DNA of 64,000 nt, taken from positions 41,429-105,428 of the forward strand of contig CALZDP010000003.1 of NCBI GenBank assembly GCA_945638575.1. Direction: 5' to 3'. Under the pieces are notes generated by a model. It was not told where the DNA came from. It saw only the letters and a list, made by a program, of their open reading frames with translations, and did no database searches. Position 1 is the stretch's first letter. Each line of letters begins with the position of its first letter. Positions 23,802 through 34,114 of this stretch are shown one piece after another. The position numbers were made by a program, and so were the translations under genes. Source of the DNA: an uncultured Clostridia bacterium. GTDB lineage: Bacteria; Bacillota; Clostridia; Christensenellales; Borkfalkiaceae.

Positions 23802-23815
23802 CGAACATTTGTTTG
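23802..23815 (+). promoter_or_regulatory. LexA (SOS) box 1
   Basis: CGAACATTTGTTTG fits the Gram-positive LexA pattern CGAAC-N4-GTTYG and overlaps the -35 box of the radical-SAM promoter. Confidence 0.85.
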
Positions 23816-23842
23816 ACAATATACCGCCGTAAAGGGTATAAT
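23813..23842 (+). promoter_or_regulatory. Consensus SigA promoter of the SOS-controlled rSAM operon
   Basis: TTGACA (23813-23818) and TATAAT (23837-23842) are both perfect, with an 18-bp spacer. A LexA box sits on each side, so a bound repressor would block RNA polymerase at both elements. Confidence 0.9.
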
Positions 23843-23847
23843 ATTAT

Positions 23848-23861
23848 CGAACATTTGTTTT
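23848..23861 (+). promoter_or_regulatory. LexA (SOS) box 2
   Basis: CGAACATTTGTTTT repeats the first 13 bases of box 1, centred 46 bp downstream, just after the -10 box and 14 bp before the ATG. Confidence 0.85.
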
Positions 23862-23874
23862 AAGCGGAGTAACA

Positions 23875-25125
23875 ATGATTGACAAAGAAAGACTGAAAAT
23901 TTTAACCGAAAGCGCAAAATACGACGTGTCTTGTTCTTCATCGGGGTCGGCGCGCAAAAACAACGGCGGTGTGGGAAACGCAAGTTACGGCGGAATCTGC
24001 CATTCCTTTACACAGGACGGGCGGTGCATATCCCTTTTGAAAATTCTTATGTCCAACAAATGCTCTTACGACTGTCTGTACTGCGTAAACAGGTATTCAA
24101 ACGATATTCCGAGAGCCTCTGCAACGCCGGACGAAATTTGCGAACTTACCATGGAATTTTACAAGCGCAACTATATAGAAGGCTTGTTTTTATCGTCGGC
24201 GGTGGAAGGTTCGCCCGACAGGACTATGGAACTTATGTTGGAAACGGTTATCAAACTAAGAAAGGTTTACGGCTTTTACGGATATATCCACCTAAAGGGC
24301 ATCCCCGGTGCGGATAAAATTTTACTTGACCGCGCAGGAAGTTACGTTGACAGAATGAGTTATAATATAGAACTGCCTTCCGAAAAAAGCCTTAAACTTT
24401 TAGCGCCACAAAAAAGCAAAAAATCCATTTTAGTGCCTATGGCGAACACGGCGGAAGAATACATTATCGCAAGAAAGGAAAAAAATCACCGCTTTTTGCC
24501 TGCGGGACAAACCACCCAAATGATAATAGGCGCTTCGCCCGAAACGGACGGACAGATAATTAGGCTTACCGAAGGGCTTTATGATAAATTTCAGTTAAAA
24601 CGGGTATACTATTCTTCGTACGTGCCGACAAACAGTAAAACCGCCCTGCTTCCGCAAGATCCCGTAGGGCTTTTAAGAGAGCACAGGCTTTATCAAGCCG
24701 ATTGGCTTTTGCGTTTTTACGGTTTTAAAGCGGAAGAACTTATCGATAAAGATGAAAATTTGGACCCGACCGTTGACCCTAAATGCAGTTGGGCGCTGAA
24801 AAACATTCACCTTTTCCCCGTAGAAGTCAACACCGCTTCGCCCGAAATGCTTTTGCGCGTTCCTGGGATAGGTTTTAAAAGCGCAAGCAAAATAGTCGCG
24901 GCAAGAAGGTACGCCAAACTTGATTTTTGCGACCTAATTAAAATGCGAGTGGCTTTAAAGCGCGCCGTTCACTTTATCACCTGCGACGGAAAATTCGGCG
25001 GACAGGAAAAACCTACGGCGATAAAAAACCTTATTGCGCTATCCGAAAGGGCGGATACTTTTGAACAGATGAGCATGTTTTCAAACGGAGAAATTTCCTT
25101 TTCCGTTTTGGGTGGAGAGTTATGA
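23875..25125 (+). CDS. SOS-inducible radical-SAM protein with helix-hairpin-helix domain (putative DNA modification/repair, TIGR03916-like)
   Basis: The 416-aa protein has a radical-SAM CX3CX2C cluster motif (CSYDCLYC near residues 62-70) and a C-terminal helix-hairpin-helix DNA-binding motif (VNTASPEMLLRVPGIGFKSASKIVAAR, about residues 320-345). That layout matches what I recall of the 'putative DNA modification/repair radical SAM protein' family, whose reaction is not established. GGAG precedes the ATG. The gene has a perfect promoter flanked by two LexA boxes, so it should be induced by DNA damage. The stop overlaps the next gene by 4 bp. Its product is expected to act on DNA with the downstream partner. 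Confidence 0.85.
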   Translation: MIDKERLKILTESAKYDVSCSSSGSARKNNGGVGNASYGGICHSFTQDGRCISLLKILMSNKCSYDCLYCVNRYSNDIPRASATPDEICELTMEFYKRNYIEGLFLSSAVEGSPDRTMELMLETVIKLRKVYGFYGYIHLKGIPGADKILLDRAGSYVDRMSYNIELPSEKSLKLLAPQKSKKSILVPMANTAEEYIIARKEKNHRFLPAGQTTQMIIGASPETDGQIIRLTEGLYDKFQLKRVYYSSYVPTNSKTALLPQDPVGLLREHRLYQADWLLRFYGFKAEELIDKDENLDPTVDPKCSWALKNIHLFPVEVNTASPEMLLRVPGIGFKSASKIVAARRYAKLDFCDLIKMRVALKRAVHFITCDGKFGGQEKPTAIKNLIALSERADTFEQMSMFSNGEISFSVLGGEL

Positions 25126-25940
25126 TTGCCTATAAAATCAGCAAAGAAAAGGACGCGATTTTTTGCGCTTTATTTGAAAGTTTTACTTTAAAAGAAAGAC
25201 CTATCGCAGTATTTTCGGGCGCCTTTCAACCTTCCTTCGATTGTCAGGTTAAAACAATAAATTACATCAAAAATAACGCCGAAAGAGTGAAGAAAGGTAT
25301 AATAAAATGTGGGGGTATAAGCCTGTTATCGACGCTTTTTTATGTAATGCGGTCTTCTGACGACCTTATGGAAAGCATAGTCTTTTCGGTTGCCCATAAA
25401 TGCCTGTCTGCAAGAAAAAACTTAACCGATAATTACAGCGATCCCGATATGCTGGCGTTTTACGAGTTGAAAACAAAAATCTCGCACGAGGTCCATATTA
25501 TGACCGGTTTTGTAAGATTTGAAAAAACCTTAAGCGGAGTATGGTATTCCCATATAACGCCCGATAACGACATAGTTGACCTTATCGCACCGCATTTTAA
25601 AAAAAGGTTACCAAACGAAAAATTTATACTGCACGATACAAAACGTAACATTTTAACCGCTTACGACGGTAAAAACCTTATTACCCTTAAAAGCGATAAG
25701 CCCGTAACCGTCTATCTTGACAAGGACGAAATAGAATTTCAAAATCTGTGGCAGACCTATTTCGACTATGCGCCCGTATTTGAGCGAAAAAACTTACGCC
25801 AACAGGCAAATTTCCTGCCCCATAGATACCGCCGTAATATGAGCGAGTTTTTAGGCACACTTGAAAGCGAAATCGCTTGCGCACCGCAAGTTTCAGACTT
25901 AAACGGTTTATATAAACCAGACGTTACGGACGACGACTGA
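25122..25940 (+). CDS. Putative DNA-metabolism protein, partner of the radical-SAM gene (TIGR03915-like)
   Basis: This 272-aa protein overlaps the radical-SAM gene by 4 bp (ATGA) and is surely co-translated under the same SOS control. The N-terminus (MIAYKISKEKDAIFCALFE) and the C-terminal LPHRYRRNMSEFLGT motif fit my recollection of TIGR03915, a family linked to this radical-SAM group. In many relatives it is fused to a uracil-DNA-glycosylase-like domain. No such domain is present here: the protein ends shortly after the TIGR03915 region. Biochemical function is unknown. A dispersed repeat copy lies in the gene (25304-25330), read as KCGGISLLS. Confidence 0.75.
   Translation: MIAYKISKEKDAIFCALFESFTLKERPIAVFSGAFQPSFDCQVKTINYIKNNAERVKKGIIKCGGISLLSTLFYVMRSSDDLMESIVFSVAHKCLSARKNLTDNYSDPDMLAFYELKTKISHEVHIMTGFVRFEKTLSGVWYSHITPDNDIVDLIAPHFKKRLPNEKFILHDTKRNILTAYDGKNLITLKSDKPVTVYLDKDEIEFQNLWQTYFDYAPVFERKNLRQQANFLPHRYRRNMSEFLGTLESEIACAPQVSDLNGLYKPDVTDDD
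25304..25330 (+). repeat. Dispersed palindromic repeat, copy 10 (inside TIGR03915-like CDS)
   Basis: Reads AAAATGTGGGG, GTATAAGCCTG, TTATC, in a different reading frame from the other coding copies. Confidence 0.65.
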
Positions 25941-25944
25941 TAAG

Positions 25945-25973
25945 CAAATAACGGGCTATAAGCCCGTTATTTG
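25945..25973. terminator. Bidirectional terminator formed by a dispersed repeat (copy 11)
   Basis: CAAATAACGGGCT and AGCCCGTTATTTG are a perfect inverted repeat around ATA, lying between two converging genes. It is the most symmetrical member of the dispersed palindromic family and probably ends transcription from both sides. Confidence 0.75.
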
Positions 25974-25992
25974 TGATTTTGCATATTTTATT

Positions 25993-26817
25993 TTAGATAA
26001 ACGATTCGCGTTTTGCATAAAAAAGATACTGCTGAATAATGCCTGAATTTTCCTTAAAAAGGTCTAAAAAGTACCTGCTTATTTTTGTGCGGTCGGTTAA
26101 CTTTCCGTCAAAATCTTCACGGTAAATTTTTTCTATCCAAGTATCGACGGGGAAACTGTCTCCGCGCCCGAACCCGAAAAGGGTTACGCAGTTAGCCACT
26201 TTATCGCCAACCCCTTTTATTTTAAGAAGTTGCTTTCGTAAATCTTCGGTGGAAAGGGTGGAAAGGTAATCTAAATCCAACTGCTTATCGACGATTTTTT
26301 GTGCGGTTTCCTTTATGTATTCCGCCCTATAACCAAGCCCTGCTCCCCTTAAAAGGGAAATATCCGCCTCCGCAAAAGCCTGCGCCGAAGGAAATGCGTA
26401 ATAGGTTTGATTTTCAAACGTGAAAGGCGCGCCTAAAGAGGCGCAAAGTTTTTCTATAGTAGACTTAATGCGCGGTATGTTGTTGTTTTGAGAAACTATA
26501 AAAGAAAATAAAGCCTCTTCCCTATCCTGACGTAAAATGCGAATACCCGAATATTTTTCGGCAACGTCCAAAACCTTTTTGATGTTGCAGTTTTGAATAG
26601 TTTTAAGAATGCTTCCGTAATCCTTTTCAAGGTCAAAATAGCCCTTAAAATAATCTTCGTCGTCGCTTTTAACATAGGCTTTGCCGTCAAAGTTAAAAAC
26701 TTTTGCAATCTTGTCTTTGGAAATCACCAAATAGCAGTCGTCCTTTTGAAAAAATCTAAAGACCTGACCGCAGTTTAAGGTATCGTGAAAATTTAAAAAT
26801 TTTTCTACAGTAATCAT
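25993..26817 (-). CDS. ogg: 8-oxoguanine DNA glycosylase, OGG-type (HhH-GPD)
   Basis: A bifunctional glycosylase/AP lyase that excises oxidised guanine. The 274-aa protein has an OGG N-terminal beta domain (LNCGQVFRFF), the helix-hairpin-helix LLKIKGVGDKVANCVTLFG with the Schiff-base Lys in GVGDK (near 204), and the catalytic Asp in FPVDTW (near 224). These match Lys249 and Asp268 of human OGG1. It converges on the SOS-controlled rSAM pair, giving a three-gene DNA-damage island. No LexA box was seen near its start. Confidence 0.9.
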   Translation of the reverse strand: MITVEKFLNFHDTLNCGQVFRFFQKDDCYLVISKDKIAKVFNFDGKAYVKSDDEDYFKGYFDLEKDYGSILKTIQNCNIKKVLDVAEKYSGIRILRQDREEALFSFIVSQNNNIPRIKSTIEKLCASLGAPFTFENQTYYAFPSAQAFAEADISLLRGAGLGYRAEYIKETAQKIVDKQLDLDYLSTLSTEDLRKQLLKIKGVGDKVANCVTLFGFGRGDSFPVDTWIEKIYREDFDGKLTDRTKISRYFLDLFKENSGIIQQYLFYAKRESFI

Positions 26818-30952: not shown

Positions 30953-33900
30953 TTATGCCGCGACGTAAACCACTTCAATAGAGGTGATTCTTACCTGACC
31001 GTTAGTTGCAGTGCCTGTATTTCCGACGCTAAACGCAATACTTGTTCCGTCAACAGTTACTGTAGTACCCGTTGCGACATTTACACTGTCTTTTGTTAAA
31101 ACGCCGGTTTTATATGAAGTATAATTGATTTTTACGGAAACAATCTTATAACCTTGTTTCGCACTGATTGTTATTGTCGGACTCTCGGTTTGATAAACAC
31201 GAATTGCAGAATCTGATGTATAATACTTGCCGGAATTGCTGCCGCCTTTTATTTTAACGCTGATATTACTGTCAAGGTCAAAATTCTTATGTTGCGTTCG
31301 ATTTGACCAATTGTAATTACTAATAGTAACACTTACGGTTTGATCTTTCGGTTCTTCCGAGCCGATAGCCAATACTTTTACGGTAAACGTTTTTGTGTCG
31401 GTTGTTTCACCGCATTCAATGGTTGCGGTAAGCGTTACGGTTTGTACTTCGGCGGTCTGCGTTACGGTTGCTTGACCGTCTGCAATCGCTATTGCCGTAT
31501 TATCGGAAGCCCAAGTAATAGTAACGTCTTCAAACTTTGAAGTAGGAAGTTCTAATTTATCGGTAACTTCTTCGGGAACAGTTAACTCATCTTTAGTTTG
31601 CGACACCTTGATTGATTCGGGAACGCCTTTATTTTCCACTAATCCGGAGCCAACTGCTTCAATTGTGCTTCTGAAAGTAGTTTTAGCGGAAACTAATACT
31701 ACGTGCATACCAACTTCAACGCCTAAGGTGTTAAACTCTTTAAGGTTATTGAAACTGCTGCCGGAATATTCCATCTTTTGAGCGCAAAGACCGTAAACAT
31801 ATACGATTGTTGTGCCATCGGTGATGTAGAAGTTGCCGTATGTGGTGTTAATTATTTCGGTAACAACGCCTTCGATTGTATAGAAGTTTTCGTTGCTGTC
31901 CTCTAATGCGATAAAGTCAGCCAAAGTTTTGTATTCGTAAAGGTATTCACCGCAAACGTCGCACTTGTAATCATTATTTTCATACTTATGTCCGGCAGGG
32001 ATAGGTAGTTGTTGTTGCTTATGGCAACTTGTACATTCACAAAGTTTAACACCATCGGTGGTGCAAGTTGCTTCGGTGGTAACCGTACCTTCGTTCCAAA
32101 CGTGTTTTGTTTCGTCAACGGGGATAGTATAAGTTGCTTTATCTTCTTCGGCAATTTCTTGCGTACCTGCCTCGTCGGTAAACCACTTGTGGCAGACCGA
32201 ACATTCATAATGCGCTTTAATGCCGGTTGCACCGCAAGTTGCCTCAACTTCAACAAGTTGTAAACTGTGTCCGGTTGCAGGAATGGTTTCTGTCTTCGTT
32301 TCGCCACATACTGTGCACTTATAAGACGTAGAACCTTCTTCAGTACAAGTAGGTTCGGTAGCGGTTACAACTTCCCAAGTGTGTGAAGCCGGCGTAGTAA
32401 CGGTCATTTCAACAGTGTTAAAACGAGCCTGTTTAGTCAATGAAGATATAACAAAACTATTTTGAGGGTTGTTTAATACAACCGTTATTACTTTGCCATT
32501 GGTCGTTACTGTACAATCTTTGATATCGCCTGAATTAAGCAAGTAGCCAGTTTCGCATGTAAACACGATTTTAGTTATTTTTGCGTTTGTATCGTTTAGA
32601 GCAATCGTAATTTTAGAACCAACATAGCAACGAATAGGGACAGCATCGTTTACGTTAGTATTGCTTGACGCTTTATCGTTAATAAACGTTGCATCTTCAT
32701 TTTTTGAGTTCCAAACCTGTTTATCATTCGTACGCGATAAACGATTTTTAACATCGGTAAAGTCAAATGATACAGTATTTTCTTTAGGCTTTGCTAATGC
32801 TGCTATTTGTTTGTAAGTTGTATAATCACAACGGGTACACGTGTCATAGGCTTCATAACCGGTTTCTGTGCAAGTTGCGGGCTTTCCGTCGTGGTGCACT
32901 AAATCGTGTCCGATTGCTTCGGTTTCATTAGCCGTATAAGTATGATTGCAGTTTTTACAAGTGTAAGTTGTGTAACCTTTTTCTGTACAAGTAGGTGCGG
33001 TTACTACGGTTGTATAATCGTGTCCGGTTGCTTCGATTTCACGAGTTTCAACATGTTCTTCGTTATGCTTGCAAACACGTTTTTCCAAGCCTTTTTCGGT
33101 ACAAGTGGCTTCTGTTACCACAGCCCATTCGCCCCAATCGTGGTTATTTTCGTTAATGGCGAGAATAACGGACGATTTATCGGTAATTTCGTTTTCGCCC
33201 CTGACGTCGGCAAAATAATTACCGCATTCACTGCATACGTAATAGGTTATGTTGCCTTGCGTGGTACAAGTAGGCTTGACAGCGTCAACCTTTGTTAAGA
33301 CGTGCTGTTTGATGGGGATAATCACGCTTTCTTTGGCGATTTCGTTTTCACCATTTTCATCGCTGAAATACTTTCCGCAAACGGGACATTCATAATAGGC
33401 AATATGACCGGCAACTTTGTCGGTAGCAGGTACTTCCTCAACAAAGTTTAAGGTATGGCCGGTTGCTTTTAAGATTACGGCGGATTTATCGGTAATTTCG
33501 GTTTTGCCTTCGCTGTCGGCGAAGTATTTATCACATTCTTCGCATACGTAATAGGTTATGTTGCCCTGCTCGGTACAAGTAGGCGCAACTGCCGCAATAT
33601 TTTTTAATGCGTGCCCTTTAGCAGGGATAACGACTGCGTTTTTGTCGGTAATTTCGGTTTCACCCTTTTCATCACTGAAATATTTTCCGCATTCAATACA
33701 TTCATAGTATGCTTTGTTGCCGTCTTCGGTGCAGGTGCAAGATTGGGCTTCAACAAAGTTTAAGGTATGCGGTTTTGTGGTTATAACGCTTTCTTTGGTA
33801 ATTTCGTTTATACCCTTTTCATCGCTATAGAACCTTCCGCAGTCGGGACATTCATAATAACCGATATGTCCGTTTTCAGTGCAGGTCGCTTTTACTTCGC

Positions 33901-34114
33901 TGACAAAAACCACCTTATGGGTAGGGTCAACAAAGTCTTCACGGTAACTTTCACCGCAGGAAGAACAAACGTATTCGGTGTAACCTTGGTTACAGCCAGG
34001 TTCAACTACGGTTTTGACATAATGATGTGCGTTTTGGACTCAAGCAGACAAACCAAACGATAAGCACACCATTGCAAAAATGGCTAAAGTTGCTGTTAAC
34101 AGTTTTCTTTTCAT
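30953..34114 (-). CDS. Large Cys-rich repeat surface protein with an in-frame UGA at the lipobox cysteine
   Basis: The track gives 986 aa from a GTG at 33913. The real start is the ATG at 34114, with GGAGG six bases ahead and a TTGACA-17-TATGCT promoter. It encodes signal peptide MKRKLLTATLAIFAMVCLS, then FGLSA, then TGA at codon 25 (34040-34042), then VQNAHHYVKT. The TGA sits where a lipobox (LSA-C) needs Cys. No other stop follows for 1,028 codons. The mature part has about ten CxxC units of the type TCTExGxxxYYxCxxCGKYF, two related beta domains, an OB-like segment (YTIEGVVTEI) and an Ig-like aBig-type domain (TLTATIECGETTDTKTFTV). It is either a recent nonsense mutation, a sequence error or a recoded UGA. 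Confidence 0.8.

Follow-up and report, generated by a model that had tools for sequence, protein, structure and literature searches.

Several systems resembling the one described here are already on record. DUF4130 proteins have been linked to radical S-adenosylmethionine (SAM) proteins and to uracil-DNA glycosylase (UDG), the radical-SAM proteins being called SplB-like (PMC3765255), and the association of the pair with UdgX was noted in 2013. Furthermore, LexA control of the Clostridium acetobutylicum pair CAC3343-CAC3344 has been predicted (PMC3828012), and the UdgX-form operon of other phyla is reported to be SOS-regulated (PMC8565304). Here we analyse a stretch of 64,000 nucleotides from an uncultured Clostridia bacterium (contig CALZDP010000003.1, positions 41,429 to 105,428; hereafter the window), in which a TIGR03916 radical-SAM gene and a TIGR03915/DUF4130 gene lie together and face a gene for an OGG-type 8-oxoguanine glycosylase (Table 1). 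A preliminary description of this DNA had proposed a candidate uncharacterised DNA-repair system. The word candidate is fair, but the pair is not new, as both families are named, the UdgX association is already documented (PMC3765255) and LexA control already predicted (PMC3828012). With a probability of about 0.6, we read it as a LexA-repressed two-gene DNA-damage operon that combines a radical-SAM enzyme bearing a helix-hairpin-helix (HhH) motif with DUF4130.

Open reading frames and domain matches agree with the three genes, their coordinates and the tail-to-tail OGG gene as first described, and the 4-bp overlap of the pair is found as an ATGA at 25122-25125, which places the DUF4130 start within the stop of the radical-SAM gene. 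The radical-SAM protein scores 576.3 bits against TIGR03916 (cut-off 343.5), with positions 2-403 of the 415 of the profile covered, and its proposed DNA-binding HhH tail is recovered by PF12836 above cut-off (28.1 bits vs 27). Its partner matches both TIGR03915 (180.3 bits, cut-off 112.25) and PF13566, the DUF4130 profile (139.1 bits, cut-off 27), while TIGR03914 (UdgX) has no match in this genome. A sequence search of the PDB returned no close relative of either protein.

The coupling of the two families is borne out across genomes. Of 41 related genomes, 21 encode the radical-SAM protein, and DUF4130 accompanies it in every one of them; one further genome has a weak DUF4130 match alone. In a phylum sample of 300 genomes, where fragments and clear sub-cut-off matches were scored as present, 67 genomes have both, one has DUF4130 alone and three have the radical-SAM protein alone (Fisher P 4e-62, shared ancestry uncorrected); the partner adjoins 59 of the 65 over-cut-off radical-SAM genes of this sample. 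Both families are also found together in 78 of 80 further loci. Moreover, both genes are retained where they are unlinked, about 1.5 Mb apart in the single-contig genome G129 and on separate contigs in G090, and this retention speaks for functional coupling over mere linkage. The pair is a widespread operon, present in many genomes of at least four phyla.

Upstream of the pair lie two identical copies of CGAACATTTGTTT, 46 bp apart, the chance expectation for this box in the window, with at most one mismatch allowed, being 0.27. They flank a promoter that matches the sigma-70 consensus at 12 of 12 positions, one copy lying over the TTGACA and the other after the TATAAT. The CGAACATNTGTTY pattern occurs three times in the whole 1.67-Mb genome, two of them at this promoter. 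A lexA gene is present, with a similar box, GAACGAATGTTT, just 5' of its start. LexA-like boxes stand at the corresponding position in 14 of the 16 relatives scored, and 56 of the 80 loci from relatives have an upstream box, as against 45 of 2837 control windows (1.6%). Of the 38 cases in which a box and a near-consensus promoter could both be located, 37 had the box at the promoter. A conserved LexA box at the promoter is the mark of a LexA regulon, and since the boxes recur in relatives and sit at the promoter, the SOS control claimed in the preliminary description is well supported by sequence. This predicted control is conserved in Clostridia.

To characterise the enzyme, 161 radical-SAM homologues from Bacillota, Fusobacteriota, Bacteroidota and Pseudomonadota, a diverged second subfamily included, were aligned for their cysteines. 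C63, C67 and C70 of the CX3CX2C motif and C51 are kept in all 161, C42 in 160 and C20 in 161, this last count being alignment-dependent, as the second subfamily has its first cysteine one residue off (YDVCA for YDVSC). C20, C42 and C51 precede the CX3CX2C cysteines as a CX21CX8C triad, and the consensus of the region is YDxxC...GxCHSFxxDGRCxSLxKxLxTNxCxxDCxYCxNR; we found no earlier description of this six-cysteine signature in the literature. Three conserved cysteines beyond CX3CX2C are what would be expected of a LipA/MiaB-like auxiliary cluster. Thus, on the strength of six conserved cysteines, the enzyme probably carries two Fe-S clusters, the triad most likely predicting an auxiliary one like that of LipA or MiaB. 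The second Bacillota subfamily (L278-L291, e.g. L285:1063-2331, minus strand) scores about 360-445 bits and has its own diverged DUF4130; nearly all its members have the extra cysteines, L291 being without the second.

In the mechanism that we propose, DNA damage would cause RecA to inactivate LexA. This would free both operators that flank the promoter, and joint production of the radical-SAM enzyme and DUF4130 would follow. The enzyme would grip damaged DNA through its HhH motif, and cleavage of SAM at the CX3CX2C [4Fe-4S] cluster would yield a 5'-deoxyadenosyl radical that may attack the damaged base or sugar. The triad would hold an auxiliary Fe-S cluster with a fourth site that is open or has a non-cysteine ligand, as in LipA and MiaB, and this cluster could serve to bind the lesion, to transfer electrons or to donate sulfur. 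DUF4130 would probably have little or no catalytic activity and would bind nucleic acid so as to present the substrate, and the UdgX fusion of Alphaproteobacteria would direct the pair to uracil or to abasic sites; OGG would play no role. In this scheme we infer DNA as the substrate, radical chemistry on the lesion, the second cluster and the role of DUF4130. The computation itself shows the family assignments, the operon structure, the promoter with its boxes, the co-inheritance and the six conserved cysteines. To generalise it to TIGR03916 as a DNA-acting two-cluster family, whose triad cluster binds the lesion or supplies sulfur and whose obligate substrate-presenting partner is DUF4130, is more tentative; if true, this would be DNA-repair chemistry unlike that of spore photoproduct lyase (SPL). 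Because many genomes carry the operon and its SOS control is conserved in Clostridia, cells presumably meet a lesion that the enzyme handles. Testable handles come from the signature of six cysteines, from a co-inheritance with DUF4130 that is nearly strict and from the fusion to UdgX.

Several observations weigh against this reading. A recognisable LexA-like box was not found in 24 of the 80 loci, nor at the unlinked radical-SAM and DUF4130 genes of G129 and G090, and a literature search retrieved no report of activity, phenotype or structure for TIGR03916 or DUF4130. HhH motifs occur in RNA-binding proteins too. The auxiliary cluster is predicted solely from conservation, and zinc binding or a disulfide are alternative roles for the triad. 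In the predicted structure of the enzyme (mean pLDDT, the predicted local distance difference test score, 86.5), confidence is lower around the triad and the tail, and modest in the triad stretch, with block means of about 54-85; our interpretation is that this region fits ordering by a cofactor absent from the model.

A sub-hypothesis on the partner, compatible with the operon being a DNA-damage system, is that DUF4130 is a diverged DHH/DHHA1 protein (RecJ/NrnA/CDC45-like) that assists the radical enzyme by trimming or binding nucleotides or DNA ends, which we consider doubtful. The nine best PDB fold matches of the DUF4130 model (pLDDT 91.2) all belong to the DHH superfamily (PggH, PAP phosphatase, family II PPase and CDC45), with a best E of 6e-4 and, for the top four, probabilities of 0.96-0.99; DHH phosphohydrolases also come up repeatedly in its viral matches. 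However, the TM-scores are about 0.17-0.35, indicating poor superposition, and similarity did not appear at the profile level: in hhalign, DUF4130 gave probabilities of 0.3% against NrnA and 0.1% against RecJ, as compared with 89.5% for the positive control, NrnA against RecJ. The N-terminal DG motif is also missing from the window protein. The predicted DHH-like fold is thus retained as a lead only, one that profile comparison does not support. Conserved charged residues of DUF4130 are E123, R132, R162, R222 and E242.

The fold of the radical-SAM protein bears on an alternative reading, namely an SPL-like enzyme that abstracts hydrogen to reverse a thymine photoproduct, DUF4130 being its helper. 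Among radical-SAM enzymes, SPL is the one known to repair DNA, the SplB-like label was given to these proteins in PMC3765255, and SOS control would fit UV damage. However, the nearest solved folds are those of HydE, LIAS/LipA, BioB, ThiH, viperin and MiaB, and SPL is missing from the 50 best matches, which is evidence that the modelled enzyme is not simply SPL-like; the fold search thus lends no support to the SplB-like assignment. Apart from the six, one more frequent cysteine was examined, C370, which 116 of the 161 homologues have, and many carriers are gut bacteria, for which UV is no obvious hazard. To our knowledge, the six-cysteine motif is not an SPL feature either, and we regard this alternative as unlikely.

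A further reading that appears improbable is that the substrate, damaged or in short supply during SOS, is RNA or a free nucleotide and not DNA, the enzyme being, for instance, one that modifies it by inserting sulfur. Such a role would be in keeping with LipA and MiaB as fold relatives, and HhH alone is no proof of DNA. Moreover, in both split-pair genomes queC directly precedes DUF4130 (L107:721-1464 and L102; G090 and G129), its identity being confirmed by profile in G090, and the Parabacteroides pair (L299) lies near queF and queC. However, queC does not recur next to the pair in the 80 loci, and LexA-type control together with the Alphaproteobacterial UdgX fusion point to DNA.

The third gene of the locus encodes a protein with OGG_N and HhH-GPD domains, in which the catalytic Lys (KGVGDKVANC) and Asp (FPVDTW) are kept; it falls under the TIGR00588 cut-off (164.6 vs 397.85). 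A gap of 52 bp separates the gene from the pair. Two sister species share this adjacency, and the distance is about 2.4 kb in a third and about 21 kb in a fourth; only some species of the genus have OGG next to the pair. A base-excision module of pair and OGG in place of UdgX is highly improbable, and already refuted as a conserved arrangement: the genes are convergent and a strong terminator separates them, the window has five GAACN4GTTY sites but none upstream of OGG, OGG was found at 0 of 80 other pair loci (flanks up to 4 kb), and many genomes without the pair contain it. The working link to OGG suggested in the preliminary description is therefore abandoned; OGG is an unrelated neighbour with no part in the operon.

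The UDG-like association ascribed to the pair in that description does exist elsewhere, in the DUF4130-UDG fusions that form the partner in the Alphaproteobacteria examined and in the systems of PMC3765255. The reported absence of the UDG domain here also holds, no UdgX domain being fused to or beside the pair, but it is nothing special. Indeed, UdgX is over its curated cut-off in 0 of the 300 phylum genomes, and Acinetobacter, Spirosoma, Parabacteroides and Pusillibacter have pairs without UdgX as well; thus the two-gene form is a common one and does not represent a replacement of UdgX by OGG.

Among the other neighbours of the pair, the only clearly DNA-repair-like recurrent third gene encodes a DinG/XPD-type helicase, found in seven Lachnospiraceae-type loci (L193, L232, L184, L222, L227, L228 and L231). 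It follows the DUF4130 gene in the same orientation (L193:2883-5273, 46 bp after; L232:6638-9082), and in the two that were scanned (L193 and L232) it has DEAD_2 and Helicase_C_2 domains. This neighbour counts in favour of the DNA-damage reading.

A role in anti-phage defence was rejected, as the PADLOC profiles gave no match at E 0.01. Carriage by phages was likewise rejected: there was no PHROGs family match and no relative in IMG/VR, and of the ten 'phage' tblastn matches, eight are to gut contigs that bear no annotation and two are to records of a single 240-kb 'Acinetobacter phage' (MD-2021a; INPHARED CAKLQH020000003.1 and CAKLQF020000004.1), which are probably bacterial DNA because their identity, 50.7%, is the same as that of A. 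baumannii records. The operon is also found in PLSDB CP040042.1, a 538-kb A. baumannii 'plasmid', where it lies by glyQ and the gene for glycyl-tRNA synthetase beta; the MD-2021a and CP040042.1 records may be chromosomal DNA. Elsewhere in the window, positions 30953-33913 (minus strand) encode a 986-aa protein with repeated Cys-rich units of the CTExGHxxYYECxxCGxYFxDExG type, probably a surface protein.

Table 1 Features of the radical-SAM/DUF4130 locus, in positions of the window.
Feature	Position	Strand	Description
LexA-like box 1, CGAACATTTGTTT	23802..23814	+	overlaps the -35 hexamer; kept in relatives
Sigma-70 promoter TTGACA-18-TATAAT	23813..23842	+	12/12 match
LexA-like box 2, CGAACATTTGTTT	23848..23860	+	just 3' of the -10 hexamer
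TIGR03916 radical-SAM protein gene	23875..25125	+	416 aa; profile matches; CX3CX2C C63/C67/C70; extra C20, C42, C51; HhH 316-345
TIGR03915/DUF4130 partner gene	25122..25940	+	272 aa; profile matches; ATGA overlap with the radical-SAM gene
Intrinsic terminator-like hairpin in the pair/OGG gap	25944..25974	.	13-nt perfect inverted repeat; 14 pairs (terminator scan)
OGG-type 8-oxoguanine glycosylase gene	25993..26817	-	convergent neighbour, outside the operon; domain matches

Like lipoyl synthase, MiaB and MoaA, which have a three-cysteine auxiliary cluster, the window enzyme has three extra conserved cysteines beside CX3CX2C; they are N-terminal as in LipA and MiaB, and LipA/LIAS and MiaB are among its best fold matches. 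It differs from these enzymes by the CX21CX8C spacing, the HhH tail and the predicted SOS control, and has no close sequence relationship with them. SplB is likewise a radical-SAM protein linked to DNA repair, whereas the window enzyme has the extra cysteine triad and HhH, with SPL outside its top fold matches. The COG4277-COG1573 operon of Alphaproteobacteria, Bacteroidetes and Verrucomicrobia is SOS-regulated (PMC8565304) and, in the Alphaproteobacteria examined, contains a homologous radical-SAM protein and a DUF4130 domain; its partner has a C-terminal UDG domain, which the window partner does not have. Finally, CAC3343-CAC3344 of C. acetobutylicum, a TIGR03916-type radical-SAM protein with a protein of unknown function, is the same pair by family name and context, from which the present locus is distinguished by two boxes that flank a perfect promoter.
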